Shown here: piece by piece, positions 13,128 through 33,200 of the stretch
How positions within the stretch are numbered: position 1 is the first letter of the stretch
Layout: each line of letters opens with the position of its first letter
Origin: a virus
IMG/VR virus record: IMGVR_UViG_3300042305_000935
Location: 1-44,438 of that record
Length of the DNA: 44,438 nucleotides
Reading direction: 5' to 3' (one strand)
Translations under genes and position numbers: made by a program
The notes under the pieces: model-generated
Told to the model about the DNA's origin: nothing
Databases searched by the model: none
Seen by the model: the letters and a program-made list of their open reading frames with translations, nothing else

Positions 13128-13958
13128 GTGACCGCTGAGAACAAAGATAGGCCCATCAAGGCCAGAACGCAACCCCTAGGTTTCCTTCCCATCAACGTCG
13201 CCAAGCTGATGCTTGCCGATGGCGTGGTGGAGATCTTCACCCGCAACGACCTTGTCGGGGCGATGTTCAAGCTGGCGATGCTGACTTGGAACGAGGGGCC
13301 CATCTCCGAGGCCCGCGCCGAGTCCAAAGTCGGTCTCGAAGAGGTGCAGGCTCTGCTCGAGGCCGGAGCCATCTCCGAGGATGACGGACTGATCTCCGTC
13401 CCTTGGGTGGAGGCGGCGAGGACCGAATCCGACGCCATGCGCGTCTCCAAGGCAGAGAAGGCCCGCAAGGCAGCGCAAACGCGATGGGAGTCGGATGCAT
13501 CTGCATGCAACCGCATGCAACCGCATGCATCTGCATCACAGTATGCTACAGAGAGAGAGGAGAGAAAGAGAGATAGGGACATTTCTTCTCCTTCGGAGAA
13601 GAGCCCGCGCAAGCGCGGGACTCCGGCGACGAACCTCTGGGCGTCTCTCTGGTCTGAGCTTCGCGGCATGGACTGGGTGTGGAAGCAGAAGGATGCCGTT
13701 GCGATGTCTCGATGCATGTCTTCGGCTGGCGGCGACCTTTCGGAGGTCGAGCGCAGGGCGCGGCGCATGCTGATGTCCACGAACGAGTGGGTCGCGACCA
13801 ACGCCTCGCCGTGCCTGCTGCTCTCGAAGTGGAACGAGATGGGCATCGAGGTCGTGCGACTGACAGCTACCGAGCGCGCCGCGATTCCGACTGTAGAATC
13901 GCAGGATCTGCTTCGCGGGCTTCAGGAGGCCCAGCGAGCCATGAAGGAGATCCGATGA
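13128..13958 (+). CDS. Replication initiator-like protein containing origin iterons
   Basis: A 276-residue protein starting at GTG 13128 after a GGAG ribosome site. Residues about 15-105 (FLPINVAKLMLADGVVEIF, VGAMFKLAMLTWNEGPI, VEAARTESDAMRVSKAEKAR) resemble the YdaU/DUF1376-type winged-helix replication proteins of phages. The middle (AAQTRWESDASACNRM through YATEREERKRDRD) is low-complexity and is encoded by a decamer repeat array, as in lambda O-type genes where the origin lies inside the initiator gene. The C-terminal third (SLWSELRGMDWVWKQKDAVA onward) is helical and could contact the helicase loader. The next genes follow by overlap. Initiator role is inferred from fold pattern, iterons and the loader-like gene downstream. 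Confidence 0.65.
   Translation: MTAENKDRPIKARTQPLGFLPINVAKLMLADGVVEIFTRNDLVGAMFKLAMLTWNEGPISEARAESKVGLEEVQALLEAGAISEDDGLISVPWVEAARTESDAMRVSKAEKARKAAQTRWESDASACNRMQPHASASQYATEREERKRDRDISSPSEKSPRKRGTPATNLWASLWSELRGMDWVWKQKDAVAMSRCMSSAGGDLSEVERRARRMLMSTNEWVATNASPCLLLSKWNEMGIEVVRLTATERAAIPTVESQDLLRGLQEAQRAMKEIR
13493..13619 (+). other. Origin-like module A: decamer iterons, purine tract, two hairpins
   Basis: Four consecutive 10-mers with core GCATGC/GCATCA start at 13501, 13511, 13521 and 13531, with a partial copy at 13493. They are followed by GTATGCTACA, then a GA-only tract at 13549-13574 ending AGATAG. Next is an 8-bp stem with TTC loop (13584-13602) and a second 7-bp GC stem (13604-13619). 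Ten-base spacing places each box on the same face of the helix. The same order of parts, inverted, occurs at 21397-21510. An origin of replication is the simplest reading. Confidence 0.6.
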
Positions 13959-14086
13959 ACAACCAAGCAACAACCAAGGCTACTGGCAACGCGAAACTGG
14001 ACGCTGATGCCCTGATGGCAGCGCTTGGTGAGGCAATTGTTGGTAAGCCGCTAGTCCGCTCTACAAAGGAGAATTCCGATGCCTGA
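13955..14086 (+). CDS. Small protein, 43 residues
   Basis: Starts in an ATGA overlap with the initiator-like gene and ends at TGA 14086, inside the start region of the next gene. The protein begins with a polar Asn/Thr/Lys stretch (MNNQATTKATGNAK) followed by one amphipathic helix (DADALMAALGEAIVGKPLV). No family recognised. The tight coupling on both sides argues that it is translated; a role as partner peptide of the initiator is possible. Confidence 0.5.
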   Translation: MNNQATTKATGNAKLDADALMAALGEAIVGKPLVRSTKENSDA

Positions 14087-14243
14087 CTACAACGTTTGGA
14101 CGACCGCTGAGCTGTTCGAGGAGCTTGACCATCTCATGGCAAGCATCGCGGCTGGCAACGCCGCCGACCCTAGGATCCTCGCCGCGACGATGAGCCAGAT
14201 GTCCCTGATGCTTGCCGAGATCCAGCGCCGAGGTACTCCGTGA
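14079..14243 (+). CDS. Small helical protein, 54 residues
   Basis: Begins at ATG 14079, eight bases before the previous stop, with a clear ribosome site AAAGGAG seven bases upstream. It is a two-helix protein: WTTAELFEELDHLMASIA and RILAATMSQMSLMLAEIQRR. It ends in the overlap with GTG 14240 of the helicase-loader-like gene. Unknown function; the good ribosome site and coding composition support it as real. Confidence 0.6.
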   Translation: MPDYNVWTTAELFEELDHLMASIAAGNAADPRILAATMSQMSLMLAEIQRRGTP

Positions 14244-14629
14244 ACCTTCCCGAAGCGATCGCCAAGGCGTTCCAGTTGTTCGACGGAGCCTACCAGAAGA
14301 AGTGGTCACCGAACGGCAACAGCGCCGTGGCGTGGACCGTGGTACTCGATGGTCAGGATCCTAAAGAGGTTCTCGCCACGGCCATCAAGTGGGTTCAGGA
14401 CGGAAACGAGTGGCCTCCGAGCCCCGCAGACATCCTCAAGCACATGGGATCCCGCTGCCGATGCGGCGACTGCATCCCCTGCAAGCGCAAGGTCGCCAGA
14501 CAGATCATTGAACGTGGAGGCGCGAAGCGCCTGTACGGATCTGGAGGTGCCTTCATTCCGCCCCCCTCATGGTCTGACGCAGTTCCCAGCAAGCTTCAAC
14601 AGCTACCCCAACATGAGGGCGAAGAATGA
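14240..14629 (+). CDS. Helicase loader/inhibitor-like replication protein
   Basis: A 129-residue protein starting at GTG 14240 (GTGA overlap). Residues about 28-70 (AVAWTVVLDGQDPKEVLATAI, WPPSPADILKHM) match the pattern of G39P/DnaI-N-like phage proteins, in which a helical domain ends in a (F/W)PP-x-(I/A)-ADI motif and binds the replicative helicase. A cysteine cluster CRCGDCIPC follows at about 74-82 and probably binds zinc. Lying just after the initiator-like gene, it would load the host helicase at the phage origin. Assignment is by motif and context. Confidence 0.6.
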   Translation: MNLPEAIAKAFQLFDGAYQKKWSPNGNSAVAWTVVLDGQDPKEVLATAIKWVQDGNEWPPSPADILKHMGSRCRCGDCIPCKRKVARQIIERGGAKRLYGSGGAFIPPPSWSDAVPSKLQQLPQHEGEE

Positions 14630-14898
14630 CACACGGTCGCAGATGGTCTATGTCTGTCACGGTCAACAGCGATAAGTTCGGAGAGTTCGAGATCCGATTC
14701 TTTGTCGATGACAGCCTCATTCAGAGCTGCAACGACTTTGTCCTAGATCGTGGCCTAGCGCTTGGGCGCATGTTCCCTGAGGCCCGCATCGGCTGCTCTC
14801 AGGTGGACATGATCTGCTACGACTGCGGCTTCGATAGTCGTACCCAAGGATCTGGCCTAGGGTTCGCATGTCCCTGCATGTACATTCCTAACTTGTAA
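14626..14898 (+). CDS. Unknown cysteine-containing protein, 90 residues
   Basis: Starts in an ATGA overlap with the loader-like gene. It combines beta strands (SVTVNSDKFGEFEIRFFVDD) with a Cys-bearing C-terminal half (IGCSQVDMICYDCGFD, FACPCMYIP), which has CYDC and CPC pairs that could bind zinc. No family recognised. It belongs to the same early transcript. Confidence 0.6.
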   Translation: MTHGRRWSMSVTVNSDKFGEFEIRFFVDDSLIQSCNDFVLDRGLALGRMFPEARIGCSQVDMICYDCGFDSRTQGSGLGFACPCMYIPNL

Positions 14899-14905
14899 CG
14901 ACACA

Positions 14906-15118
14906 ATGAAGAAGACCTCCAAGACAAGCAATCGCGAGTACTCGGCTGCATTAACTTTCCGCATGAAGCCGGAGCATCTCGAGAAACTCCATTCCGACGC
15001 CAAGGCCGCTAACATGGGGCTTAGCTTGTATATCCGGTGGATGCTCAAGCTTCAGCGCGCTCCCTACGGATTGGGCACGAATGGCGAACAAGAGAAAAAA
15101 GTGCAAGACGTGCGGTGA
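14906..15118 (+). CDS. Ribbon-helix-helix-like small DNA-binding protein
   Basis: A 70-residue basic protein. YSAALTFRMKPEHLEKLHSD gives a beta strand followed by a helix, and AANMGLSLYIRWMLKLQ a second helix, the plan of ribbon-helix-helix repressors and relaxosome proteins (strand with alternating polar residues, then helix-loop-helix with a G-x-S-xx-hydrophobic turn). It could be the phage's early regulator; no other repressor is evident in the genome. The next gene begins inside its 3' end. Confidence 0.55.
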   Translation: MKKTSKTSNREYSAALTFRMKPEHLEKLHSDAKAANMGLSLYIRWMLKLQRAPYGLGTNGEQEKKVQDVR

Positions 15119-15383
15119 GCCTCTGACTCCGGACCAGTCCCCAATCGACATGGAAGCCAGCAAGGTTGGCCTGTGTCCTTGGTGCAATCACGTTGCTGGA
15201 GCCGCCGAGAAGGCTCAGCGGTTCCAGCATTGCGAGCACCTGTGGACTCCTTGGATCGAAGTGCAGCAGCAGGGCCAATGGGCTCGCCAATGCAGCCTAT
15301 GCGCCATGACGCACCTGTCATGGGCCAAATTGAAACCTACGATCGAACCGGAATACGACATCTCATGGTGCAGCCTTGACTGA
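15081..15383 (+). CDS. Double zinc-ribbon protein
   Basis: A 100-residue protein with two zinc-binding sites visible: CKTC (8-11) with CPWC (32-35), and C51-E-H53-x-W with CSLC (71-74). The second has the CxHxW...CxxC form common in phage zinc ribbons. It overlaps the preceding gene by 38 bases and is followed by an overlapping TTG-start gene. Small zinc ribbons of this kind usually contact nucleic acid or host proteins; no specific role is seen. Confidence 0.65.
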   Translation: MANKRKKCKTCGEPLTPDQSPIDMEASKVGLCPWCNHVAGAAEKAQRFQHCEHLWTPWIEVQQQGQWARQCSLCAMTHLSWAKLKPTIEPEYDISWCSLD

Positions 15384-15588
15384 ACTCTACAACCACGACG
15401 GCGACGACTTCATTCGGCAGGTGGGCCTGTCTCGAGCTGTCGCTTGGGACATCTTTGCGTCTGCAGCTCTGAGCATGTCCATGCACCCCGGCACGACCCG
15501 CGACAAGGCGCAGCCCAAGACCGTCGAGGAGATTGCTGCTATCGCAGACGCCATGCTGGCCGAGCGGGACAAGCGTTGGTTCGTATGA
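15376..15588 (+). CDS. Small phage protein with AIADAMLAER ending
   Basis: A 70-residue protein starting at TTG 15376, eight bases before the upstream stop. The phrase FIRQVGLSRAVAWDIFASAAL followed by TVEEIAAIADAMLAERDKRW is the form of a widespread small phage family in which the last helix reads (I/A)ADAML-x-(A/E)R. Function unknown in the family as far as I know. It ends in an ATGA overlap with the zinc-finger gene. Confidence 0.65.
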   Translation: MTELYNHDGDDFIRQVGLSRAVAWDIFASAALSMSMHPGTTRDKAQPKTVEEIAAIADAMLAERDKRWFV

Positions 15589-15851
15589 AGAAGTATCGCT
15601 GCCCGTTCTGCCCAGACGGCTTCTCCACGGTCGAGAAGTACGACATGCACTTCCAGAGCCTCCACCGTGTGGACCGTTTCACCGGACGTGTACAGGGCTA
15701 CCGAGAGCCTCTGCCCTACAGCCGCCCCAAGCGCGAGAAGCCCCCGCTCAAGGACGACCTAGACGGCCTCTTCTCATGGGGCCAGCAAGATGACTTTGAG
15801 CAAGAGGTACCTGACAACAGGCCGCCTCCTCCTCCCGTTTCCCCCTTTTGA
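15585..15851 (+). CDS. C2H2 zinc-finger protein
   Basis: An 88-residue protein starting in an ATGA overlap. The N-terminus is one C2H2 finger: C6, C9, H22 and H27 (C-x2-C-x12-H-x4-H) with aromatic residues at the expected core sites (F13, Y19, F23). A basic linker and a Pro-rich acidic tail (NRPPPPPVSPF) follow. Single C2H2 fingers of this kind in phages are small DNA or RNA binders; the Pro-rich tail could bind a partner protein. Confidence 0.65.
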   Translation: MKKYRCPFCPDGFSTVEKYDMHFQSLHRVDRFTGRVQGYREPLPYSRPKREKPPLKDDLDGLFSWGQQDDFEQEVPDNRPPPPPVSPF

Positions 15852-15859
15852 AACAGAAC

Positions 15860-16090
15860 ATGCCTAAGAAGAAAGCGAACCTGTCCGTTGGTCGCGGCGA
15901 GAAGCTCCCCGTCAGCCGTGGCGCTGGCCTCACCGCCAAGGGTCGGCGTAAGTACAACGCCGCCACCGGATCCAACCTGAAAGCTCCGACGAAGGACAAG
16001 AACAACCCCCGCCACAAGAGCTTCTGCGCTCGCTCCCGAAGCTGGAAAGGCGCTCGCGGGAAGGCCGCTCGAGCTCGCTGGGGCTGCTAA
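15860..16090 (+). CDS. Small basic protein with KSFCARS motif
   Basis: A 76-residue, highly basic protein. It carries LPVSRGAGLTAKGRRKYNAA, GSNLKAP, and KSFCARSRSWKG followed by RGKAARARW, phrases shared by a common small phage family (DUF6321-like, from memory). I choose ATG 15860; TTG 15848 is in frame and would overlap the finger gene. Function is unknown; charge suggests nucleic-acid contact. It is the last gene of this rightward block, just before a convergent gene. Confidence 0.65.
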   Translation: MPKKKANLSVGRGEKLPVSRGAGLTAKGRRKYNAATGSNLKAPTKDKNNPRHKSFCARSRSWKGARGKAARARWGC

Positions 16091-16157
16091 ATCCTCGGCC
16101 CTAAACCTTTACTAACACTAGCGGTTAGGAAGTTCCCACAACTTCGCCTCTTGACAG

Positions 16158-16188
16158 ACCCCCACCAAAACCAGCATTTTCTGGGGGT
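16158..16188 (+). terminator. Stem-loop between convergent genes
   Basis: ACCCCCA (16158-16164) pairs with TGGGGGT (16182-16188) across a 17-base loop ending in TTTTC. It lies between the end of the rightward early block (16090) and the stop of the leftward gene (16190), where a two-way terminator is expected. There is no long T-run beyond the stem. Confidence 0.4.
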
Positions 16189-16189
16189 A

Positions 16190-16753
16190 TCAGGGGGCGG
16201 CAGTTCCCCCTCCCCGAGGGGGAACAACGTCCGGCAAAGTAAGCTGGATACGCGGAGCAGCGGGGGTCATTTCCGAAAAATTCTGCTCCCCAGTACATGT
16301 ACTGGGGAGCAGCGCACGCAACCTGCGGTTCTCCTCCTCCAAAGCCGCCAAGCGGTCCTCCAGCCGGACCTCCGGCACCACCGCGCCACCTCCTAGGTTC
16401 AACACCACTCGCTTCTGCACAGAAGATGTCTCGCTCTTAGTCGTCTCCAGACCGTCAATCCACTCCTTCAGACGCGAGATGTAATCCAACTGGCGCGGGT
16501 TGTCAGGGTCCATAGCACCCTGCAACAACTGATGGGCAATGCCCCATGACTCAGAAGAGCCCACAAGGGCACGCACAGCCCCACGCACGCTTCCAGTCAC
16601 TCCTGAAGGCAACGGGCGCATCTCTACGCCAAGCTCCTCTGCACGCGCTACAGCCTTCTCTAGGTCCGCCTGAGCCTGTGCCCGCTTACGGTCCCTAGAA
16701 CGCACAGCACGACGAGACATCACTTCCTTGAACGATTTGTCTTGGGTTCCCAT
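16190..16753 (-). CDS. Coiled-coil protein, possible small terminase
   Basis: A 187-residue protein starting at ATG 16753. Basic N-terminal helices (SRRAVRSRDRKRAQAQADLE), a central helical region (GAVRALVGSSESWGIAHQLL, PRQLDYISRLKEWIDGLE) and a heptad-type coiled coil LEDRLAALEEENRRLRALL near 135-153, then a Pro/Thr-rich tail. Length and a basic N-terminus with an oligomerising coiled coil would suit a small terminase subunit, which is otherwise missing, but no diagnostic motif is seen. Its 3' part contains a 28-bp perfect palindrome (16284-16311) and a 10-bp hairpin (16203-16225), so the coding sequence there also serves as structure. Confidence 0.6.
   Translation of the reverse strand: MGTQDKSFKEVMSRRAVRSRDRKRAQAQADLEKAVARAEELGVEMRPLPSGVTGSVRGAVRALVGSSESWGIAHQLLQGAMDPDNPRQLDYISRLKEWIDGLETTKSETSSVQKRVVLNLGGGAVVPEVRLEDRLAALEEENRRLRALLPSTCTGEQNFSEMTPAAPRIQLTLPDVVPPRGGGTAAP
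16203..16225. terminator. 10-bp GC-rich hairpin at gene end
   Basis: GTTCCCCCTC (16203-16212) and GAGGGGGAAC (16216-16225) form a perfect 10-bp stem with a CCC loop inside the last codons of the leftward coiled-coil gene. With the stem at 16158-16188 it makes a double hairpin at this convergent junction. Likely transcription stop or mRNA end protection. Confidence 0.45.
16284..16311. repeat. Perfect 28-bp palindrome inside a coding region
   Basis: The 14 bases TGCTCCCCAGTACA are followed directly by their exact reverse complement, with no spacer. On the minus strand it encodes LLPSTCTGEQ at the end of the coiled coil. A perfect palindrome of this length is far above chance; options are a dimer-binding operator, a cruciform or a transcript hairpin. 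Confidence 0.85.
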
Positions 16754-17173
16754 ACGCAACCAACCCTACCAAAAGGGGCCCCTTCTGCAAGACAGCGACG
16801 CAATACCCCCATCACCCCCATTGGCCGCCTGAGCACGGGCAGCGAATGGAGCGGGGGCCCCGATGGGACCCGGGGCCAGACGGCGACGGGGGGCGGGGCG
16901 GGGGCCGGAGGGGGGGCGGCGGGCGGGGTGGGCGGGGTGGGGGGCCGTGGCCGCTTGGGCAGCGGGGGCCGCTCGGCGTGGCGCGCGGTAGCGCAGGGTG
17001 GGGGGGGGTGGCGCGCCGTCCGCCGATCGCGCCGAGCCTGCGCCTCCGGCGGCTGCGGCGGCGGCGGCTGGCGGTTGCGTCGGGCGGTCACGCCTGCGAC
17101 CGCGCGCGCGTGAAGCAGAGCAGCCCCACCAACCTCGAAGGGCGGGCGGGGCTGCGTTGGGGTGGCGGCTGGC
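16754..17173. other. G-rich intergenic stretch with G-quadruplex potential
   Basis: About 420 bases with no convincing gene. Between 16888 and 16944 the plus strand has nine runs of three to seven G separated by one to three bases (e.g. GGGCGGGGTGGGCGGGGTGG), and a nine-G run occurs at 17000-17008. Both strands stay open for over 100 codons, but the products are Pro/Arg or Gly/Arg low complexity, as expected from composition. No promoter is visible. The run density predicts stable quadruplexes on the plus strand, which is the template for the leftward genes around it. Confidence 0.7.
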
Positions 17174-17302
17174 CTAGCGGGTGGCGAGCCAGCGGGCGAG
17201 CTCGTCGAACAGCCAGATGAACCAGGCGATAGAGAAGGCCGCGAGTACTCCGGCGATGAGCTGCAGCAGGGCGAGGAGTTCGGCGCGGCGGCGGGGGGTC
17301 AT
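17174..17302 (-). CDS. Small membrane peptide, 42 residues
   Basis: Starts at ATG 17302 in an ATGA overlap with the upstream gene, with GGAGGTGA three bases before the ATG. After a basic start (MTPRRRAELL) a hydrophobic helix ALLQLIAGVLAAFSIAWFI (about 11-29) is followed by WLFDELARWLATR, an amphipathic end. One membrane span with positive N-terminus predicts N-in. It could be a holin-like or inhibitor peptide; nothing decides. The strong ribosome site and coupling make it a credible gene despite its size. Confidence 0.65.
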   Translation of the reverse strand: MTPRRRAELLALLQLIAGVLAAFSIAWFIWLFDELARWLATR

Positions 17303-17700
17303 TGGTCACCTCCGACGTCGCTCCGATCGATCAGGTATCCACGCTCGCACGGCTTGTCGATGTGCTCGAAGGTCCAGCGACGGCAGGCGGCATCGACGAT
17401 CGGCAGGGCGAGCTGCTGCCAGTTCACGTCCTCCAGCGCCTCGGCGGCGAGATCTGCCAACGCTCGCGAGCGAGGCGAGGCCTTGCGGGCGAGGCGCTCG
17501 TAGTGCGTCTCGAGCTTGCGAGCGAGGGCCTCGCGGACGCGGTCGAGGTCCGGCCCGTCGGGCCCGCAGTCCGCCGCGCTGGCGCTGACCAGCTCGTCCG
17601 CCTCGTACGCCCAGTCGCCGTCGTGGTCGGCCTCTTCGAGCTCGGCGGCGAGACGCCACGTCGCGTAGTTCGACCAGCCGTGATAGGTGGTGCTGGTCAT
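17299..17700 (-). CDS. NGWSNYETW-type phage protein
   Basis: A 133-residue protein opening with TYHGWSNYATWRLAAELEE, the hallmark of a small phage/plasmid family (consensus NGW-x-NYETW; DUF7249-like from memory). The rest is acidic and helical with REALARKLETHYERLARKAS and a C-terminal segment VNWQQLALPIVDAACRRW. Function of the family is unknown to me. It starts in an ATGA overlap and its last codons GGDQ contain the ribosome site for the membrane peptide gene that follows. Confidence 0.7.
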   Translation of the reverse strand: MTSTTYHGWSNYATWRLAAELEEADHDGDWAYEADELVSASAADCGPDGPDLDRVREALARKLETHYERLARKASPRSRALADLAAEALEDVNWQQLALPIVDAACRRWTFEHIDKPCERGYLIDRSDVGGDQ

Positions 17701-17954
17701 TGGTCACCTCCGGCGGGCTCGACGTCGAGGATCCCTTCCCTGAGGAGGACGCCGCCGACAGCGTCGGGCCCTCGCTCGACGGCTCGCCTGACGATCTGGC
17801 GCGCCGCCTCCATCGCGAGGGTGACCCCGACGTGGTACGAACGGTCGGGGAGGTTGCGACCCTCTTCGGCGAGTTTGAAGTGCTGCTGGCCGATTCGGTG
17901 CAGCGCGGCGAGGATGGCCGCGGTGGACGCTTCGGTGAGGTGTTGGGTCTTCAT
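17697..17954 (-). CDS. Unknown helical protein, 85 residues
   Basis: Starts at ATG 17954, ATGA-coupled to the upstream gene, and ends in GGDQ plus stop, the same nucleotide junction as the next gene. Sequence: helical TEASTAAILAALHRIGQQHF, then RSYHVGVTLAMEAARQIVRR and VGGVLLREGILDVEPA. No family recognised. The frame on the minus strand is longer (open from 18452), but the overlap start gives the regular operon spacing. Confidence 0.55.
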   Translation of the reverse strand: MKTQHLTEASTAAILAALHRIGQQHFKLAEEGRNLPDRSYHVGVTLAMEAARQIVRRAVERGPDAVGGVLLREGILDVEPAGGDQ

Positions 17955-18391
17955 TGAGCGCCTCCGTTGTTCGCCTCGCGGCGGGCGGCGTCGAGCATGC
18001 GCTCGGCGGCGGTGCGGGCAACCTTGCGAAGCTCCTGCTCCGCGCGCCACACGCGCTCGCGCTCGGCGCGTTCCTGAAGCCATGCCGCCTCGGCGGCGGC
18101 CTGCTCGCGCTGGAAGATGCGCTGCTCCTCGCGGCGGTCGTCGTTCCAGCGTTCCTGCTCCGAGTTGACGGAAAGCGCGAGGCGCACGGCGGCGCGTTCG
18201 GTTGCGGCAAGCTTGAGTCCGGTATCGTCGAATCCGGCAGAGCGCGCCGCGCGAAGGACGAGGAAGGTGGCGCGGAGCAGTCCGGAGCGCTCCCCCAAGT
18301 CCCAGCTCCGGTCGGTGGTGTCTCGTTCTTCCGTACGGGCGACCGCCTCGTAGAGATCGGTGAGAAGGTCTTCGAGTTGTAGTGCGTTCAT
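17951..18391 (-). CDS. Charged coiled-coil protein, 146 residues
   Basis: Starts at ATG 18391 after the leader ACAGGACAACAGGGCAGCC. N-terminal helices LEDLLTDLYEAVARTEERD, a middle with LKLAATERAAVRLALS, and then a long Arg/Glu/Ala-rich helix from about 85 to 140 (REEQRIFQREQAAAEAAWLQ) that predicts a coiled coil. No enzyme or DNA-binding motif. Reading starts further upstream are possible but lack a ribosome site. Unknown role. Confidence 0.55.
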   Translation of the reverse strand: MNALQLEDLLTDLYEAVARTEERDTTDRSWDLGERSGLLRATFLVLRAARSAGFDDTGLKLAATERAAVRLALSVNSEQERWNDDRREEQRIFQREQAAAEAAWLQERAERERVWRAEQELRKVARTAAERMLDAARREANNGGAQ

Positions 18392-18442
18392 GGCTGCCCT
18401 GTTGTCCTGTTGTTGTCCTGTTGTCCGGCGCCCACGAAGTGC

Positions 18443-18477
18443 GAGCGCCCACCCACTAATACGGCGGGCGGGCGCTC
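18443..18477. other. Long imperfect hairpin between small genes
   Basis: GAGCGCCC (18443-18450) pairs with GGGCGCTC (18470-18477); after one mismatch CCC (18452-18454) pairs with GGG (18466-18468). It lies in the 128-base gap between the membrane peptide gene (stop 18520) and the next leftward start (18391). It could end part of the transcripts or protect an mRNA end; a T-rich stretch follows only on the plus strand. Confidence 0.45.
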
Positions 18478-18519
18478 TTTGTTGCCAGTTTCTCGGGATT
18501 TCTTGGGGGCCTCGGGGCG

Positions 18520-18630
18520 TCAGCCTAGCAGCGCCCCCAGCGCGGACGCGAGCGCCCCGAGGGCCAGCAGCGCGAGCAGCCCCGCGAGCGCTTCGCGGCG
18601 CTCTCGGTCTGCGGGTCCGTCCCGTCTCAT
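18520..18630 (-). CDS. Second small membrane peptide, 36 residues
   Basis: Starts at ATG 18630 in an ATGA overlap with the GP88-family gene stop. A charged front (MRRDGPADRERREAL) is followed by one hydrophobic segment AGLLALLALGALASALGALL to the C-terminus. Same plan as the peptide at 17174: basic/charged N-terminus, one span, coupled to an upstream soluble protein gene. The composition of this GC-rich DNA can create hydrophobic Leu/Ala runs by chance, so confidence is moderate. Confidence 0.5.
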   Translation of the reverse strand: MRRDGPADRERREALAGLLALLALGALASALGALLG

Positions 18631-19436
18631 CGCGCGACCGCCTGTAGCCAGCGGCTCGGCACAGCCTCGAATTCGGTACGGGGTTCGGCGGGACGCGAGC
18701 CGCCCGCGCCCTTGGCCGCGAGGGCGAGCACCGCTCCGCGCTCGGCGTCGGGACGTCGCCAGAAAGCGTCCGTGACGTCACCATCCACGATGGGCAGGCG
18801 GCGACGGCCCACCACAGCCTCGCGGCCTACCATCTGAGCGTGCAGGGGCTCCGGAAGCACCACGGCGAGCCAGACAGGCCGCGCGCCTCGGCGGCGGCTG
18901 ACGTGTCCCAAGCAGTCGCGCAGGCTCGGGCCACGCTCGGAGACTGAGAAGGCGAGCGAGTAGTTCGGCGGCAGTTCTCCCCGTAGGAAGCGCTGCCACC
19001 TCGCGTGGCTCTTGGTGTAGTCGTAGAAGCGCAGCGGAGATGCGGCCCAAGATCGGAAGAGCGACGGCGAGAGGGTCGGCCAGTCGTAGTCGGTCTCGAC
19101 GTTGAGGCGGGCGGCGGGGGTCAGCCCTTCGGCGTCCGCGCGGCACGCCAGAGCGTCTAGGTCTTCATGCATCGCCACCATACCTTCGGACGTGGGCAGC
19201 CCGCCCGCGCCGATTAGGAAGCGATGCCGACGGCGGCGGGACTCTCGTACGGTGTCGAACACGCCGCGCCCCGTCTTCGAGATGCAGAACTTCGCGCACA
19301 GCCCCGCATCGGGGCAGGCGTTGCCGCGCTTCGCCTCGTTCATGGGCAAACCCTGAAAGCCGAGCGCGAGCACGCGATCGCGCACGCAGGTTTCTAGCTT
19401 CGCGTTGGACGTGAGAATGTCGGGGCGATTATTCAT
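18627..19436 (-). CDS. GP88-family protein
   Basis: A 269-residue protein. NAKLE near the N-terminus, then ACPDAGLCAKFCISKTGRGV with Cys 41, 47 and 51, VRESRRRRHRFL, and later FYDYTKSHARW match the plan of the phage/plasmid 'gene product 88' family: a cysteine cluster C-P-x-A-G-x-C-x3-C, a basic helix and a YDYTK motif. The family's biochemical role is unknown to me; the cysteines suggest a metal or Fe-S site. The C-terminal third is less conserved. Coupled by overlap to genes on both sides in a GC-rich leftward operon. Confidence 0.7.
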   Translation of the reverse strand: MNNRPDILTSNAKLETCVRDRVLALGFQGLPMNEAKRGNACPDAGLCAKFCISKTGRGVFDTVRESRRRRHRFLIGAGGLPTSEGMVAMHEDLDALACRADAEGLTPAARLNVETDYDWPTLSPSLFRSWAASPLRFYDYTKSHARWQRFLRGELPPNYSLAFSVSERGPSLRDCLGHVSRRRGARPVWLAVVLPEPLHAQMVGREAVVGRRRLPIVDGDVTDAFWRRPDAERGAVLALAAKGAGGSRPAEPRTEFEAVPSRWLQAVAR

Positions 19437-19678
19437 TGCGCGCCCCCCTGCACCTGCTTGGCGCGCTGCTCTTGCTGGTACTCTTCGATCAGCTCGCGGG
19501 CGAAGATGGGATCGTTGAGCAGTTGCATAGCCTGCAGATAGGACGTGTAGACGGTCACCCAGAGGTAGCGTTCATCCGAGGCCTCGGCCTGCTTGGAACG
19601 GTCGAGGGCTCCGAGCGCGAGGATGCCGAGGATCTCGCGAGCCTCGGAGAGAGAGAGGGGACGGGGTTTTGTGGTCAT
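19433..19678 (-). CDS. Unknown helical protein, first gene of leftward accessory operon
   Basis: An 81-residue helical protein (LSLSEAREILGILALGALDR, YLWVTVYTSYLQAMQLLNDP, FARELIEEYQQEQRAKQ). ATG 19678 follows a leader with ACAACAGGACAACAG, nearly the same as the leader of the gene at 18391. It overlaps the GP88-family gene by ATGA. No family recognised; the middle YLWVTVYTSYLQAM could bind a partner. Confidence 0.55.
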   Translation of the reverse strand: MTTKPRPLSLSEAREILGILALGALDRSKQAEASDERYLWVTVYTSYLQAMQLLNDPIFARELIEEYQQEQRAKQVQGGAQ

Positions 19679-19926
19679 AGTCTGTTGTCCTGTTGTGTCC
19701 GGCGCGGGCGACGTGCCCGCGCATGCGCCGATTGTAGTCTCGAGCGCAATACCTGCGGCGCGAGATTCTCAAAAAATCTTGGAGAGGCCCGCGCGCCCCG
19801 CTCGGACGCTGCGCCCCGCCCCAAGGGGCCCCGACCGAGCCGCTCCGAGCGCGCTCCGCACCTGTTTCCTCGGGGGCTTCGCGCTGGCCCCGTATGGCGC
19901 TGTCGCTGCTCGCGTGCGTAGCGGCG
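19679..19926. other. Divergent intergenic region, left part
   Basis: Gap between the leftward accessory operon and the rightward early block II. On the minus strand TACAAT (19736-19731) is a good -10 but has no -35 at 16-18 bases. The leader ACAGGACA repeat is next to the leftward gene. The middle is GC-rich without a convincing gene; open frames through it are composition effects. The right part holds promoter II (next entry). Confidence 0.5.
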
Positions 19927-19990
19927 GCACAGACTTGCACAGGTTCCTGCACATTCGGGTATTGACACGGGCGCGCGGAAGCTCCAAGAT
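19927..19990 (+). promoter_or_regulatory. Candidate early promoter II with three phased GCACA boxes
   Basis: TTGACA (19962-19967), a 17-base spacer and CAAGAT (19985-19990) form a good sigma70-type promoter. Upstream lie GCACAG at 19927 and 19937 and GCACAT at 19949, about one helical turn apart. The promoter at 21653 has the same three boxes at 21609, 21619 and 21629, so the pair probably share a regulator. The predicted transcript start, near 19997, is next to an in-frame ATG at 19998. Confidence 0.6.
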
Positions 19991-20039
19991 TTCGCACATG
20001 CCTCGACACTTCGTCGGGGCTGAACAGGACACACAGGAC

Positions 20040-20318
20040 ATGAACAACGAAACCAAGCATCGTTCTCCGTCTGAAATCGCGGGCGACATCGTGGCCGAGA
20101 TGCAGTCTCAGCAACCCAAGGTGTGGCGTCAGCGCTTCTTCGCGTCGGTGCCGTACCTCGACGCGATGCTCGATCTTCACGATTGGAATCAGCTCTGCAT
20201 GTGCGAGCCCGCGCGCACGATCGGCATCTACTGCCTCGGCAATCTCAACACGTTCCGTGGCCCTGAGGCCAAGCGCCTCAAGGAAGAACTGCGCGCCGCG
20301 CTGGGGGTGTCGCTGTGA
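20040..20318 (+). CDS. Unknown small protein, first gene of early block II
   Basis: A 92-residue protein from ATG 20040 (KHRSPSEIAGDIVAEMQSQQ, VWRQRFFASVPYLDAMLDLH, PEAKRLKEELRAALG). The DNA before it, ACAGGACACACAGGAC, resembles the leaders of two leftward genes here and contains AGGA at a usable distance. ATG 19998, in frame and at the predicted transcript start, would give a 106-residue product from a leaderless message. The single Cys pair CMC sits mid-protein. Family not recognised. Confidence 0.6.
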   Translation: MNNETKHRSPSEIAGDIVAEMQSQQPKVWRQRFFASVPYLDAMLDLHDWNQLCMCEPARTIGIYCLGNLNTFRGPEAKRLKEELRAALGVSL

Positions 20319-20608
20319 GCTTCAATTTCAAAGTCTACATGCGCGTTCCCAGTCCGAAGGGCGGCACGAAAGCGCTGTACGTCGCCGGATTTCGATCGAT
20401 GTTCGACGCTGTCGATTACGTCCGCCGACTGCAGCTCGGCCCAAACTACCTCTCGGTGAAGAGCCATCGTGGGGTCATCTTCAGCAACCGCGAGGCATCG
20501 ACCTCGCAAGCCGCCGACTACACGCTCGCCTGTGAGCGTTACGGCAAGCTCTACTACAGCAATCTGGGCTCCACGGAGACCGTGTCCGTCACGGAGGTGC
20601 AGGCATGA
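20315..20608 (+). CDS. Unknown small protein, 97 residues
   Basis: Starts at GTG 20315 (GTGA overlap) and ends in ATGA. A compact alpha/beta protein: FNFKVYMRVPSPKGGTKALY, FRSMFDAVDYVRRLQ, YLSVKSHRGVIFS, KLYYSNLGSTETVSVTEV. The strand-helix-strand order is like small ferredoxin-fold domains, but no family is recognised. Part of the block II operon. Confidence 0.6.
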   Translation: MSFNFKVYMRVPSPKGGTKALYVAGFRSMFDAVDYVRRLQLGPNYLSVKSHRGVIFSNREASTSQAADYTLACERYGKLYYSNLGSTETVSVTEVQA

Positions 20609-20850
20609 GCCCGTGCGACATGTGCGACGGCGACACCGTCGTGCTCGGCCATCTCGGTGGCACCGTGCATCTCCGCTGCCGCGCCTGCGGCTGGCAGATG
20701 GAGGCGAACATGGATGAGGGCGCGTCAGTCTGGTGCTACCAGACGGGTGCCTACGTCCGGCCCGCTACGTCCTGCGAGTGGGCTGCGTCCGTCTGCGCTG
20801 GCGAGACGGGCGTGATCGAGATCGACGGCGAACTGGTCTTCGTGAGGTAG
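20605..20850 (+). CDS. Small zinc-ribbon protein
   Basis: An 81-residue protein with CDMC (4-7) and CRAC (24-28 region) spaced by a beta hairpin, a simple zinc ribbon: SPCDMCDGDTVVL, HLRCRACGWQME. The C-terminal half is beta-stranded with two more single cysteines. ATGA-coupled to the upstream gene. Such ribbons in phages often bind nucleic acid or modify host complexes; no further clue. Confidence 0.6.
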   Translation: MSPCDMCDGDTVVLGHLGGTVHLRCRACGWQMEANMDEGASVWCYQTGAYVRPATSCEWAASVCAGETGVIEIDGELVFVR

Positions 20851-20852
20851 CC

Positions 20853-21275
20853 ATGAAACCCATCGACACAGCCCTTCTTCTGCGTGCGGCCTTCGAGGCC
20901 GAGTACCCCAGCCCTGACGCTCTGCAGTCTGCCATCCGCACAGGTGGTCGATCTGTCGAGATGTTCTTCACGGCGGCTCGCGGATGCCCCTGCGGCAGCG
21001 AGGCGAGGATCGAGAGGATCTTCTGTGGCGACGAGCTGCGCGACGTTTCGTGGGAGCGCCTCATCGACGAAGGCTGGCATGTGGACTACCTTGGGGTCGG
21101 GGTCTATGTGGACTACCTTGAGGTCGGCGGCCATCGCAAGACCCACAGAGTCGATAACGGGGTGTTCGTCTCCTCGTTCGACGATCCCGAAGCGCTCGCT
21201 GAGTGGTTCTGGCGTCTCGTTCAAGATGTCCGAGATCGCGCAGACCTCGAGGAGCGCCGTCCTCGCGTCTTCTAG
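20853..21275 (+). CDS. Unknown protein with internal nine-residue duplication
   Basis: A 140-residue protein from ATG 20853, two bases after the previous stop. It includes SVEMFFTAARGCPCGSEARI (a CPC pair) and a tandem duplication VDYLGVGVY-VDYLEVGGH at about 77-94, encoded by two nearly identical 27-base units. The C-terminus is acidic/helical (DDPEALAEWFWRLVQDVRDR). No family recognised. It is followed by a 400-base non-coding region. Confidence 0.6.
   Translation: MKPIDTALLLRAAFEAEYPSPDALQSAIRTGGRSVEMFFTAARGCPCGSEARIERIFCGDELRDVSWERLIDEGWHVDYLGVGVYVDYLEVGGHRKTHRVDNGVFVSSFDDPEALAEWFWRLVQDVRDRADLEERRPRVF
21081..21134 (+). repeat. 27-bp tandem duplication in coding sequence
   Basis: Two adjacent 27-base units (21081-21107 and 21108-21134) share 14 identical leading bases GTGGACTACCTTGG/A and GTCGG after them. 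The unit length keeps the frame and adds nine residues, so it looks like a recent slippage or recombination event. Confidence 0.75.
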
Positions 21276-21396
21276 AACGCTCTAGGATCGCGCAGGATCG
21301 AAGATGGGCTCGGGGCCATGCCTCGGGCCCTTTCTGTTTCTGCGTCGATCCTACGCGATCCCGTGCGGTCGATGATCATGCGGCTCGCGAGGGCCG

Positions 21397-21510
21397 CTGG
21401 TAGCGAAGCTACCAGATCTATCTCTCTCTCCTCTCTCTCCTCTCTGTGGCATAGTGACATGCAGACGCATGCAGTCGCATGCACGCGCATGCGGACGCAT
21501 GCATCGGCAT
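21397..21510 (-). other. Origin-like module B, inverted copy of module A
   Basis: Read on the minus strand: five decamers with the core ATGCG(N)3GC/GCATGC start every 10 bases (21510 to 21461), then TGTCACTATGCCACA, a GA-only tract ending AGATAG (21447-21418), then an 8-bp stem CTGGTAGC/GCTACCAG with TTC loop (21415-21397). Part order, decamer phase, ACAGAGAG start of the purine tract, stem length and loop are the same as at 13493-13602, while the stem sequence differs entirely. It lies in non-coding DNA; the translated minus strand still reads HASAC...YATERRERRER, like the initiator protein. Confidence 0.6.
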
Positions 21511-21608
21511 GTGCCGGATGTGGCGCACCGTCCGGCCTGCGCCCCTGCTTCGCGCCAGATCCGGCGTGACGTGCTCCGGTCCCGTTCGGCTGGGACCATG
21601 CCGAGCGC

Positions 21609-21680
21609 GCACAGACCCGCACAGGCCTGCACAGATTTTCTGGCGCGCGGTATTGCACGCACATGCACATGCCCTAGTAT
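21609..21680 (+). promoter_or_regulatory. Candidate early promoter III with three phased GCACAG boxes
   Basis: TTGCAC (21653-21658) and TAGTAT (21675-21680) are 16 bases apart. The -35 is part of the 14-mer GCGCGGTATTGCAC, exact at 13041. Three GCACAG boxes at 21609, 21619 and 21629 have 10-base spacing, as before promoter II. The predicted start, about 21687, coincides with ATG 21688. Confidence 0.6.
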
Positions 21681-21687
21681 GTACCGC

Positions 21688-21879
21688 ATGAAGCGCAAGG
21701 ACATGTTGGTCGTGCTGTTCAAGCTCCGCAACGCTACCTGCACAGATCCGCGAGCGGATGAGTTCTGCTCGACCGAAGAAAGCCTCTGCACGTCTTCGCG
21801 TGCTGAGGGAGATCGAAACGACGAGATCGCCGCCAGCGTCGTTTCGCACCAACAGGGCGGCATCACTCAAAAGGACTAG
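21688..21879 (+). CDS. Small basic-then-acidic protein before SSB
   Basis: A 63-residue protein from ATG 21688 (MKRKDMLVVLFKLRNATCTD), or 66 from ATG 21679. It ends seven bases before the SSB-like gene. The N-terminus is basic/hydrophobic, the C-terminus Ser/Glu/Asp-rich and probably disordered. It may be a leaderless reading frame because the promoter's predicted start lies at its ATG. No family recognised; it could also be only a leader for the SSB gene. Confidence 0.4.
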   Translation: MKRKDMLVVLFKLRNATCTDPRADEFCSTEESLCTSSRAEGDRNDEIAASVVSHQQGGITQKD

Positions 21880-21885
21880 TACGTC

Positions 21886-22503
21886 ATGGGACTGAAGATT
21901 ACGAGCAACGACAAGGGCAGTTCGATTGAGGCGGGCGCGTGGCCCGCCGTGTGCTGCGGCTACGTCGATCTGGGGACGCAAACGTCTCAGTTCGAGGCCA
22001 AGGTCGCGCACAAGATCATGATCTTGTGGGACATGCCCGACCAGCGCATCAGCATCGACGGCAAGTCGTTGCCGCGCCGCATCAGCGCTCGCTACACGGC
22101 TAGTTTGCACGAAAAGGCCAGCTTCAGGAAAGTTCTGGATGGCTGGCTGGGCCGCCTCAAGCCCGAGGAGGTCGCCTCCTTTGACCTCGATACGATCGTC
22201 GGCAAGCCTTGCTTGCTGAACATCAGCAACAAAGAGAAGCCCGATGGCAAGAGCTTCGCGAGCGTGTCGTCGGTGATGCCGCTCCCCAAGGGCATGCCTC
22301 GTCCGGCGCTCGAGGTCGAGGCTGTGCGCTACTGCCTGACCGACGACAAGGGCAACGTCAACACCGACTTCGGTCTGGTGGCAGACTGGATGCAGAAGAT
22401 CATCAAGGAGTCGCACGAATGGAAGGCTGCGATGGGCGAGGCTCCGTCGCAGGTGGGCGGCGACAACGAAGTCCGTCACCTCTCTTCGGAGGTGCCTTTC
22501 TAA
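21886..22503 (+). CDS. Phage single-stranded DNA-binding-type protein
   Basis: A 205-residue protein. GAWPAVCCGYVDLGTQTSQF near the start, then ILWDMPD, and later LLNISNKEKPDGKSFASVSS and PLPKGMPRPALE match a phage replication protein family with an OB-type fold, and the C-terminus ends in an SSB-like tip (HLSSEVPF, acidic then Pro-Phe) that usually binds host replication proteins. It is the main product of the promoter III transcript. It would coat single-stranded DNA formed at the origin. A proper profile search is needed for the exact family. Confidence 0.7.
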   Translation: MGLKITSNDKGSSIEAGAWPAVCCGYVDLGTQTSQFEAKVAHKIMILWDMPDQRISIDGKSLPRRISARYTASLHEKASFRKVLDGWLGRLKPEEVASFDLDTIVGKPCLLNISNKEKPDGKSFASVSSVMPLPKGMPRPALEVEAVRYCLTDDKGNVNTDFGLVADWMQKIIKESHEWKAAMGEAPSQVGGDNEVRHLSSEVPF

Positions 22504-27295: not shown

Positions 27296-30200
27296 CTAGT
27301 AGAGGTAGGAGCGGCGTTGCTGCTCTTTATTGATGCGAATGCCTAGGGAGGTTAGCGGTGCCTTGATGGCACCGTATAGGAACCCATCTTCACGCATCGT
27401 CTCGATAATCTCAACACCGCTAATGGGCAGGAAGTATTGCGACAGAGTCCAGATCTTTTCTGGATCAGCCCCGAACTTTCGCTCTTCACCAATGATGTTT
27501 GTGCCGGACAGGTAGTCAACCATGATGCCGATGGGCGGCGTGAACTTCGTTCTGGCGAAATCGGCAAGAACGTCATAGGCATCGTCTTGACCGAAACCGA
27601 GCTTGCCTCGAATGGGCACGATCTTTCCAGATCGAGTCATCTTCTGGCCGGAAGTCACTCGGGCCATCAAGGTCGCGAACTGAGCGAGCCCGCCCATGTA
27701 GTCAACCCTGACATCGCCAATCTGCATCTGGCCGAAGCTCGAGGAGCGCGGATCGTCGAAGAACTTGATCTCGTCCTCCTCGTCCATCGCCAGCGCGAAC
27801 ATGTAGGTGGCGAGGCGGACGGCTGCGTAGCCCATAGCCGCCTTGCCGTACATCTTCGCGATCTCCTTGCGGACAAACTTGGTGTTGCCCTTGTCGCCCG
27901 TGACGTTGAGTCCGGCGACCTTCAGCGGCATCAGGATGAGCTGGACTCGGGACAGGTACAGCTTCGGTGCCCACAGCGCGTAGCCCAAGAACTGAATCAC
28001 GTTCGTGAACGCTCGGCGCGTCTGCATCTTGGTGGCGCGCTGGATGGCAGCATCGACGCTCTCAGTAACACCGCGACCTGTCGCAATGTTCACGAAGCCA
28101 GCGATGCTTCTGATCTCGTCCTTGCTCACGTCAGCAGGGGCGGACGAGACGATCGTATCGAGCTGCCACACTCGCTGCTGATTCAGATACAGGTTAAACG
28201 CTCGGTTGCTTCCGCGAATCATCGGGCCGATGAACGGCAGCTTTTCTGCGAGCCTCGAACGCAGCATCTCCTCTGCCTTCGTCGGGTCGCCATCAACCTC
28301 GCTCAGGTCGAGGCCGGAATCAGCGTATTTCTTATCGACGAAATCTCGCAGCTTGGCTTGCTCCGTCTGGAAATAGCTCTCAGACATGCCTGCCTTGATT
28401 GCATCGGAAATCCACTTGGGGGCGCGCTTCAGGTTTCCGATGGTCACGAACACGGACTGCGTGAACACCATCGAAAGGTCAAGCGATGCGCGCAGAGCCG
28501 TGATCAGGTCGCGTGAGGCGGCCAGAATCGTCAAGGCTTTCTGCAGGCGAGTCTTGTTTCGATCAATGATCTCTTGGTTCTTCTCGAGAGCTTCACGCTT
28601 AGCCGCATTGGCCTCGATGTCTGCCGCGATTTCCTCGGGGCTCTTCTTGCGCTCAGTACGCTTGGGAGCGTCGTAGGGCTTTCCGGTGGCGTCCATCTCT
28701 GCCGAGATGTCGAGCCACTTCTGCCGCTCCTTAGCCTTGCGCGCAAGGTAGTTCTTGCGAGCGCGATCCTCGGGCGACAGCTTCGGGTTCATCTCGGAGC
28801 GCATGGCCTCGGCTTCAGCCTCCAGCGCATCAAGTTCGCCGAGCATGCGCTTAGCTTCCGGACTCATCCCGACAAGAGCCTCGAGCGCTGCGCGCTTCTC
28901 GACCTTGTCGTTGAGAATCTGATCCTTCGTGCGGGCTACGCTGCGCTTGAAGTCGCGCTTCTCAATGCGCTTACGAAGAGCCTCGAGCCTACTCCGCATG
29001 ATCGATTCAGCGCGGCGCAGGCGGCGCTCTGGATCCGTCTTGCGACGGGCTTCGAGCTGGGATTGGACCTCACGGACCTGATCTTGCAGTTTCTGAGCCT
29101 CGGGGCTCAGGGCCTTGAACGGATTCGCCGCCCTGAGCCTGTCCTCGGATGCCAATGTCTTCTGCAGATCTTCGAGCTTCTTCTCCAGCGCTTCGATCTG
29201 GTTGTCCTTGGCATGCAGGGCGTTATGAACTTCACGCTTAGCGGCAAGCTGCTCGCGAAGCAGCTTGAGCTCAGGGTCTGCCTCGATCTCCCGACGCCCT
29301 CGATTGAGCTTTTCCTTTGCCTCGATCGCGGCATCGAGATCGACGATCTCGTTACGCACTCGCGTCTTTGCAGCCTCGAGAGCGCCCTTGACGTTGTATT
29401 CGGACTGGGAGTTGAGGCCCTTCTTCTTGGCAAGAATCCTCCAGTCCCGCGTAATGCTGCGCTGCAGATCAGAAGGACCGACACGACCAATGCCAGTCAG
29501 CATGGGGGCGATGTCGGCCTGCACGTCTCGAAGCTTCGCAGACTCTCGGGTCTCACCGACAGACTGGGCGAGCTTGATCTCGGCCTCGTTCTTCGTCGGC
29601 GGCCTGTAGTCGCCATATCCAGAGAAGATGTCCGCCGTCTGCTCGATCGTGATCTCGGGCATCTGGCCAACGGTGCTCGAGTGCAGCTCGCTGACGATCG
29701 AGTGCAGCTCGCTGACGATCTGCTTGGAAGTGATCTCCAGATCTTCGTTGATCAGCTCCAGCGCGTACTTACGCATCAGCGAGCGCAGGCGGCGCTTCTC
29801 CCAAACTTCAAGATCGGCGTAGCCGCGATCGTTGACGATGTCGGACACGCGCTCGATGAAGACTTCGCGAGTGAACAGTTCTTCATCGAGCGGAACGGTT
29901 GGCCCGCCCTTGGAAGGCGTCTTCCGCGCAGGCTTCGGAGCCTCGGGCGTAGCCATCGACGGAGCGGCGGGAGTCTCGGCTCGGATGCGCTGCTCGATCT
30001 GCTCCACGATGGACTTGTCGATCGACCCTCCGGCGATCGTCCAGATTTGGAAGACGGATTCTGTCGCGCTCGAGAAGCCGCCAATGTACTTCAGCGTGTT
30101 GTCGATGAACTCATTGACGCTTAAGCCACGTTTCACATATGCACGCGCAAGTTCAACGTATGCTTGATCGAATACGTTCAGCTCATCTTCCCGTGGAGGA

Positions 30201-33200
30201 GCAGACGCAGTACCAGACTTGAGGTTGTCGAGTTTGCGTTTTGCGGCCATCAGGGCCGCTCGGATTATCGGGTCAGTAATGCCAAGAGCGTCTAGTTGTG
30301 CTTCATCGGATTGAGCGGGCGCAGCAGGCTTGGCGGGCGCAGCAGGCTTGGCGGGCGCAGCAGGCTTGGCGGGCGCAGCAGGCTTGGCTGGCGCAGCAGG
30401 CTTGCGAGCAGGACGAGCCTCAATCTCAGCCTTGAGAGCTGCGACCTCGTCCTCGAGGATGCCCGTGCGGAACTCCATCTCCGCTCGCAGTCGGCGCTCG
30501 AGCTGGGCCATCTCGGCCTGCTTGATCCGCTCGTAGGATTCCTTTGCTGCGGCCAGCGCCCTCGCGAGCTCAGCCTTGTAGACCTCCGCAGTCATGTTGT
30601 CGCGCACCTGCGCCAGCGCAGCCGTCGCACGCGCCTCCATGACAGCAAGCGAGTAGTCACGGTTGACCATCATCTTGCGGATGTTGAAGGCGCGGCCCGA
30701 CTCCGTGCCGACAGCCTTCGTGACCATCCCGAACGTTTCGAGATCGTTGTTCGCGTCATCGAGAGCCGACTTCAGCTCAGGAGTCGGATCCTTGATGTAG
30801 CGGCGCATCAGGTCGTCACGCGAGTTCAACAGTCGGTTCAGCTCGAGCGCCAGAAGCGCTGTCTCCTGCGTCGTGGTCGGACGAGCCTGAGCAACGAGCT
30901 GCTTCACAAGCTCGGCACCGGAGTACGGGTTGCGCGAGAACTGAGCCATCGCAGCTCCAAAGCTCTCCTCCCACTTGATCGGCACATGATCCTCGAAGAA
31001 CTCGAGGCCCATGCGACGGAAGAGTTCGCGCATCGAGGCGTTCTTGATGCCAACGGGGCCCGGCTCGATGTACATGCCGGAGTCGGCGTTCGTCACGACG
31101 CGAGTGGCGAAGTCGGGAACCTTGGCTTCCGATTCATCGGGCAACTCGGACGGCGGATCCTCTGGCGTTCCCTCGACTTCCTCGTCGGGATCGCGCGGCG
31201 GGGCGAAGAACCGCTCGGGGCCTTTAGCTGTGATTATTCCCGCCGACTTTGCGGCCTCATCTACCATCCTTTGCGCCGTCTCTATATCGCCAGCATTTGC
31301 GGCTTGAGCGGCATACAGACCTCCTGTTTCGATAGCCGGAGCTTCGACTGCGATGTTGTTGGGGTTGGCTGTCGCGATGGCGTTGGAGCCCTCGAGCACA
31401 GCTTCTAGAACGGAACCGGACTCCACGGGGATGCCGAGGATTTTGCCAACGGCATTCACGAAAGCTCGCCACGCGGAAGGCTTGCGAGCATCAGGATACT
31501 TGACGGTGTTCAGCCAGTTCTGGAACTCAACATCGGTGAGAGATCCAGCGATGAACTCGTCAACGTTCGACATGTAGTAGTTGAACGGACCTTTGAAGCG
31601 CGTCGAAAGCTCGGAGTTGATGGTCCCGCCCTGCAGGGCCGAACGATCCTCCGAAGGCATCTTCGCCTTCTTCGACGGAGCCTTCTTGCCGTGCTGCTTG
31701 ACGTAGGCTTCCCAAGCGGCGACGTACGCCTTGAACACAAGGCGAGCGCCATCGGCCTGCTGGCTGGTGACGCCTTCAGGGTTCTTGGCACCGGGCTTGA
31801 TCTGCTCGCGAACGCGAGACATGTACTCGCCGGACTCCATCTTTGGAGATCCGGAAGCGAGGTTGAACGCCGCGACCACATCGATCGTCACGCCGTGGGC
31901 GACTTCGTGAAGCACGACCTCCGTCGTCGAGTCACTCTTGAGTGACATCGGCTGTCCGATGTTGCGCGGCGTGTTTTCTCGGAAGTCCTTGCCGAGCGTG
32001 ATCGACTGCTGCAGGCGATCGGATCCAGTCTCCAAGATCGCCGCCGCGATCGCGCCAAAGCCGGAGTCCTTGTCCGTGGACTCCGTGTTGATGACCTGCT
32101 GGAGGATGCCGCGAACGTCCTTGGTTCCCGCCGTGGAGTACCAATCGCCAACCCAGTTCTTGGCGCGATGGTCCGTCTTCTGCGGGGTCGGGCGGGGTTC
32201 GACGTACGAGATCTTCAGCTCACGGCGGAAAGCGTCCTCGACCGACTCTAGAGCGCCGCCGCCACCGAACAGCGATCCTTGGTTCTGCAGCTTGTCGTAC
32301 GCGACCTCACCGATCGATGCCAACTTGGAGGCGAGCTCGGTGGGCTTGTAGCCCTCGATAGCCTCGGCAAGGATGATCGCGTCAGGATTGTTGCGCCATT
32401 GCTCCGTCCGCGCCGTGGGGTCGATGGGCGGCTGCCGCATCGTATCGCGAATAGTGACAATGCCCTTGCCGGACGACGCCTGAATCGAGTTCTTTGCCGC
32501 AATGGCATCGACGGCCAGAGACAGCGTCGGCGTGAAGCCTTCCCATGCGAACTTGATACGCATGATGTCGGGGAGTGCGCGCATCAGCTTCTGAGTCGTG
32601 TCCGGCGTCATCATCCGCATCGTCTGGATGTCGCCAGCAACGACAGCAAGGATCAGGCGCTCGATCTCCTTCGCCGCCTCGGGCGTGATCGACTGGTTCC
32701 CGCTGGGATCAGTCTTGATCATTCTGACCGCTTCGTTCGGAGTGATCGCTCCAGAGTCGGACAGAACCTTGATGATCTCGGAACGCGAGCCCTTGTTATC
32801 CAGAGCTGTGGCAAGCGTCCCATCTCCGATTGCTCGCGAGATCGCAACGGCAGCAGAGAAGTCAATCTTGGACGCTCGGCTCAGAGCCATCGACTCGGGC
32901 GTCGTGGTCGCCATCGTGCCGATGTTGAACGAGCGAGAAAGTTCGCCGGGCTTGCCAGCCGTCTCGAAGCTGATGCGGCGCACCAGCACCGGGTTCTTCA
33001 TCGCCGCGACCTTGGCCGAGTCGATGCCGAATCGAGCGGAGTTGTCGATGACGTACTGACGAAGCCTCTGCGCGTTCGCTTCAGGGTTGCTGTTGGCAAT
33101 CAGGACCGAAGGACGCTGCCCCTCGGCCATGCCATAGGTGATCAGCATCGCCATCGAGCGGCGGTTGCCGGACAGAACGGAGTTGTCCGGAGCCAAGATG

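Follow-up and report, generated by a model that had tools for sequence, protein, structure and literature searches.

The window analysed here is the whole of a 44,438-base IMG/VR record from an uncultured bacterial virus. Its two ends map near each other when aligned to relatives, so the window is probably close to a whole genome, circularly permuted. The genes encoding the terminase, the portal and other structural proteins run leftward on both flanks and the early region is placed in between. A leftward accessory block at 17000-19700, which includes a GP88-family gene (18627-19436), has a GC content of about 70% compared with about 59% for the genome. On the minus strand, 27296-38413 encodes a polyvalent giant protein of 3705 residues with ddrB-ParB and ResIII/DEAD helicase domains.

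In the early region, the gene at 13128..13958 (plus strand) encodes an initiator-like protein of 276 residues, with a predicted winged-helix-like domain at the N-terminus, a variable linker and a C-terminal domain. No confident family match was obtained for this protein and none at all in Pfam, including the lambda O family; its homologue in a relative, G001, with which it shares 45% identity, presented a weak match to PHROG 9327 "primosomal protein". The winged-helix-like part was modelled with a pLDDT of 72-89 at residues 31-100, the model being poor outside the N-terminal domain, and a structure search returned just weak winged-helix matches. The initiator-like gene is followed by a small helicase-loader-like gene (14240..14629, plus strand; PHROG 2289 helicase loader, E 2.6e-5), whose product gave a predicted model of poor quality, and the same order of these two genes is found in G001. 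No replicative helicase gene was identified. The gene 21886..22503 (plus strand) encodes a putative ssDNA-binding protein (PHROG 862), and is followed by a Gp157/Mu Gam-like gene and, further on, by a nuclease gene.

The middle of the initiator-like gene, which encodes the linker, contains a compact set of elements on the plus strand that we call module A (13493-13602). It starts with four decamers placed from 13493 in exact steps of 10 bases, GGATGCATCT, GCATGCAACC, GCATGCAACC and GCATGCATCT, to which a GCAT is added (13493..13536). A junction box, TATGCTACAGAGAG (13542..13555), leads to a tract of 24 purines (13550..13573) followed by TAGGGA, and the module closes with the hairpin TCTTCTCC-TTC-GGAGAAGA (13584..13602), which has an 8-bp stem and reads C-GAA-G on the complementary strand. 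The duplex around the purine tract is among the 0.14-0.26% least stable of the genome.

Module B (21512-21397, minus strand) is located in the intergenic gap between a rightward operon ending near 21285 and genes starting near 21679. The upstream operon is ended by an intrinsic-terminator-like hairpin with a T-rich tail (21306..21330, plus strand), placed just before the module. On the minus strand, a GCATG unit repeated five times at intervals of 10 bases (21457..21512) is followed by the junction box TATGCCACAGAGAG (21440..21453), 25 purines and then TAG (purine tract 21421..21445), and the hairpin CTGGTAGC-TTC-GCTACCAG (21397..21415), whose tip on the plus strand is GCGAAGC. Here the duplex around the tract is among the 0.6-1.3% least stable of the genome. 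A GTG-started frame (21454-21879) can be drawn through the iterons of module B, but not through its purine tract or hairpin. A role of the module hairpins as terminators of the flanking genes was ruled out, as there is no T run on the transcribed strand.

The two modules share the same order of parts, namely 10-bp-phased GCATGC iterons, TATGCYACAGAGAG, a purine tract and an 8-bp stem with a TTC loop. An earlier note on this DNA had described two modules of one plan, with one in the initiator-like gene and the other in non-coding DNA; the order of parts, the coordinates and the 10-base steps of the decamers proved correct, and the gene map bears out the placement. Two details had to be amended. 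The purine tracts, present in both modules as claimed, are 24-25 nt long rather than 26-30 and each is broken by a T before AG, and the stems, which were said to differ completely, differ at seven of the eight positions and have the loop-closing C-G pair in common.

These similarities are far from what chance would produce. When the window is ranked by lag-10 periodicity, the top two stretches coincide exactly with A and B. Triloop hairpins whose stem reaches 8 bp or more number only three in 44 kb, and two of them sit in the modules. The composite of a purine tract of at least 18 followed by such a hairpin was counted twice in the window itself (0 in 200 first-order Markov resamples), and the alignment of A with B that the note had proposed gave a local score of 77, the best among 100 shuffles being 22. 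Linkers of phage initiator genes often hold simple purine repeats, which could suggest that A and B are a chance or low-complexity artefact of such a linker. This is scarcely credible given that the composite was never seen in the resamples, that module B lies outside coding sequence and that the pair is also kept in G001.

Direct DNA and protein searches found nothing close to the initiator or to the modules among named phages. With the terminase as query, seven IMG/VR contigs were retrieved (80-86% protein identity in six of them), four of which contain an initiator homologue; the linker is reached in three of these four, and in each of them it contains a purine tract and the hairpin TCTTCTTC-TCC-GAAGAAGA. 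Besides the window, A modules are present in the loci L052 and L055. Distant relatives recognised through the terminase or an exonuclease (G004, G006 and G007) have no homologous initiator, and in G004 and G007 no strong lag-10 iteron-like array was seen. Likewise, no paired modules were found in phages sharing just the ssDNA-binding protein or the nuclease, nor in Dagobah. An IMG/VR search with the purine tract and the exact hairpin pattern gave zero matches, and the matches of a pattern search in bacterial genomes were rejected as chance.

G001 (40,252 bases, about 75% identical to the window where aligned) is the sole relative long enough to show both modules, and the argument from the pair is therefore based on one relative. 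Its second module lies on the minus strand in an intergenic gap (about 15830-15716 of L062), upstream of the homologue of the window gene 21886-22503 (46% protein identity), and by this comparison of sequences the A/B pair is conserved and syntenic. The earlier note had drawn attention to relatives in which one module might have decayed; the one long relative keeps both. Directly after the first hairpin of its module B, G001 has a second one, AAGGCTGAAC-CTGTC-GTTCAGCCTT (L062:15690-15716), and at the same place in module A of the window we observed CCCGCG-CAAG-CGCGGG. Near the initiator gene of G001 there is also a long Gly-Tyr/Ser-rich repeat frame, Arg-Ser on the other strand (L063:3312-3683).

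The orientation of the pair is not kept. A and B are inverted in the window and direct in G001, while the neighbouring genes keep their orientation, so the importance that had been given to the inverted layout is not supported. Since the G001 modules point the same way, recombinational flipping, converging forks and polar trapping at inverted sites find no support as conserved features. It would seem that retention of the second site does not depend on how it is oriented.

The recognition sequences, in turn, have changed together. Within each genome the iterons and junction of A and B are similar (score 57 in the window, 54 in G001), whereas module A of the window and module A of G001 score only 12 over the same parts, against a mean of 12.6 for shuffled sequences. 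In fact, the window uses GCATGC and the junction box shared by its two modules, and G001 uses RCATGGCC-like units with AGTAAGGAGAG. A joint change of A and B, accompanied by an initiator at 45% identity, is what would be expected if one protein binds both, and the matched divergence can be read as the signature of a single DNA-binding protein reading both sites. The identity between the initiator homologues is consistent with an altered specificity.

Independent copying is the main alternative for the matched divergence. Module B would then be a recent duplication of A in each lineage, with no conserved function, which agrees with A and B being alike within each genome and not between genomes and with the different orientation of B; repeated copying of A into B could also give the matching within genomes. 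Nevertheless we consider this improbable. Module B occupies the same intergenic place in both genomes, and the spacer bases of the iterons have diverged while the GCATGC cores have not. Moreover the stem of B is no copy of that of A and yet the length of 8-9 bp, the triloop and C-GNA-G are kept, which copying does not explain.

The hairpins obey a common loop rule. Read on the pyrimidine strand, all four module hairpins of the window and G001 are C-GNA-G (C-GAA-G in three, C-GGA-G in one), compared with only 8 among the 140 triloop hairpins (stem of at least 5 bp) that form the background in the same two genomes; the four are not fully independent, as those of the two A modules have a coding ancestor in common. 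The stem length of 8-9 bp, the triloop and the closing pair are kept across modules and the stem sequences are free, which agrees with the claim of the note that the hairpin is maintained as a structure, here in both modules of two genomes. C-GNA-G is the loop rule required for the supercoil-driven hairpin extrusion of phage N4 (PMC4496689) and defines a class of unusually stable DNA mini-hairpins (PMC4686876). The module hairpins resemble the N4 early promoter hairpins in having a short stem, a triloop closed by C-G, a loop with G first and A last and a form suited to extrusion; they differ in that the stem sequence is free and in being linked to iterons and not, judging from the Pfam matches of the giant protein, to an RNA polymerase.

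This resemblance, together with the giant 3705-residue protein encoded by the phage, could suggest that the hairpins are promoters for an N4-type hairpin-reading RNA polymerase, making a primer or early RNA at both sites. We regard this as very improbable: in Pfam the giant protein was assigned to ddrB-ParB and ResIII helicase families, with no match to an RNA polymerase family, the stems have no sequence in common, unlike N4 promoters, in which the recognised bases are kept, and the hairpins are tied to iterons.

The reading that we favour, with a probability of roughly 0.6, is that A and B are full origin-type elements served by the same phage initiator, A being the primary theta origin and B an oriR-like second site. 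The twin modules, and a relative which keeps the pair with a different and again matching code, indicate that replication of the virus is probably started or controlled at two sites, in a manner similar to SPP1. We infer the protein binding, the melting, the extrusion of the hairpin and the division of labour between A and B as follows. The product of gene 13128-13958 would bind the iterons, which are all aligned along the same side of the helix, and melt the adjoining purine tract. This tract can take the place of an AT-rich unwinding element since the surrounding duplex is in the lowest 0.14-1.3% of genome stability. The C-GNA-G hairpin beyond the tract would be extruded under negative supercoiling and may mark, or hold open, the single-stranded site at which the helicase loader and helicase enter. 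The pair thus suggests that the origin includes a DNA hairpin sensitive to supercoiling. Module A, inside the initiator gene, would be the primary (theta) origin. Module B, placed before the ssDNA-binding and recombination genes, may act like SPP1 oriR, either as a late or alternate origin, as an initiator-bound fork barrier aiding the switch to concatemeric replication, or as both.

Iteron plasmids are known to have iteron-only control sites outside the origin, and module B, located 170-370 bp upstream of the genes of its operon and right after the terminator-like hairpin, might similarly be bound by the initiator without ever starting replication, as a titration or handcuffing site for copy control or as the operator of the ssDNA-binding/recombination operon. 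This alternative deserves serious consideration, but we find it unlikely. Module B has the whole origin plan, including the purine tract and the hairpin, in two genomes, which exceeds the needs of a decoy, and no sigma-70-like promoter was seen there.

A more specific version of the origin reading is also unlikely and is put forward tentatively. In this twin-origin system the supercoil-extruded C-GNA-G cruciforms would be required, the hairpin sensing the superhelical state and the same initiator binding the intergenic twin, so that A would fire early on supercoiled circles and B would set the switch to concatemers. If this is true, the origin would include a kind of element, the cruciform, that has not been described for origins of the lambda or SPP1 type.

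Phage initiator genes commonly contain iterons with simple repeats behind them, and this extends to unrelated families that have the same GCATGC decamer; module A alone is therefore ordinary. The DUF1376/DUF6291 phage genes at L078, L083 and L084 belong to protein families different from that of the initiator described here and also have 10-bp-phased GCATGC iterons within the gene, with a purine-rich repeat behind them in L078 and L083 and, in L083, also a 9-bp hairpin, as in the modules of the window; no second GCATGC array was found elsewhere in these partial contigs. Among 31 DUF1376/DUF6291 loci, simple repeats were present in many linkers and hairpins in few, and a hairpin can therefore not be regarded as general. 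What is unusual is the presence of a second complete module, together with its matched divergence and the rule followed by the hairpins. In the initiator-like genes of two unrelated phage or prophage loci (L083:6718-6810 and L132) the hairpin loop is TGAC, which reads C-GTCA-G on the other strand, a GNNA tetraloop analogous to the C-GNA-G triloop rule. Several phased GCATGC arrays were also seen within about 130 bp of one contig (L079:4350-4540; G010:23858-23989), possibly an intergenic origin.

With the lambda-type origin located in gene O, module A shares the iterons and a readily melting tract, placed in the central part of the initiator gene, where the linker is encoded. The iterons are 10-bp decamers here and about 18 bp in the lambda type, and the purine tract, the hairpin and the second full module elsewhere are differences too.

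The closest parallel is SPP1, where oriL lies within gene 38 and oriR is intergenic, 12-13 kb apart, gp38 binds both, and oriR-bound gp38 has been proposed to act in the theta-to-sigma switch (PMC3485210, PMC6316719). As with oriL/oriR and gp38 (G38P), there are two distant and similarly organised sites with direct repeats and an unwinding element, one candidate initiator, one site inside the initiator gene and the other intergenic, and a helicase loader in the same early region. In contrast to SPP1, the place of the AT-rich unwinding element is taken by a purine tract (within the 0.1-1.3% of duplex with the lowest stability), a C-GNA-G hairpin is added, the sites are 7.9-8.6 kb apart, the initiator has no detected relation to known families and the orientation of the pair varies between relatives. 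The pair is thus SPP1-like in plan and not a proven member of that group. The passage from theta to concatemeric replication in phages is best modelled in SPP1, where the initiator at the second origin is proposed to stall forks, and a co-evolving pair of one in-gene and one intergenic origin in another lineage, apparently unrelated to it, would make the SPP1 model testable by comparison.
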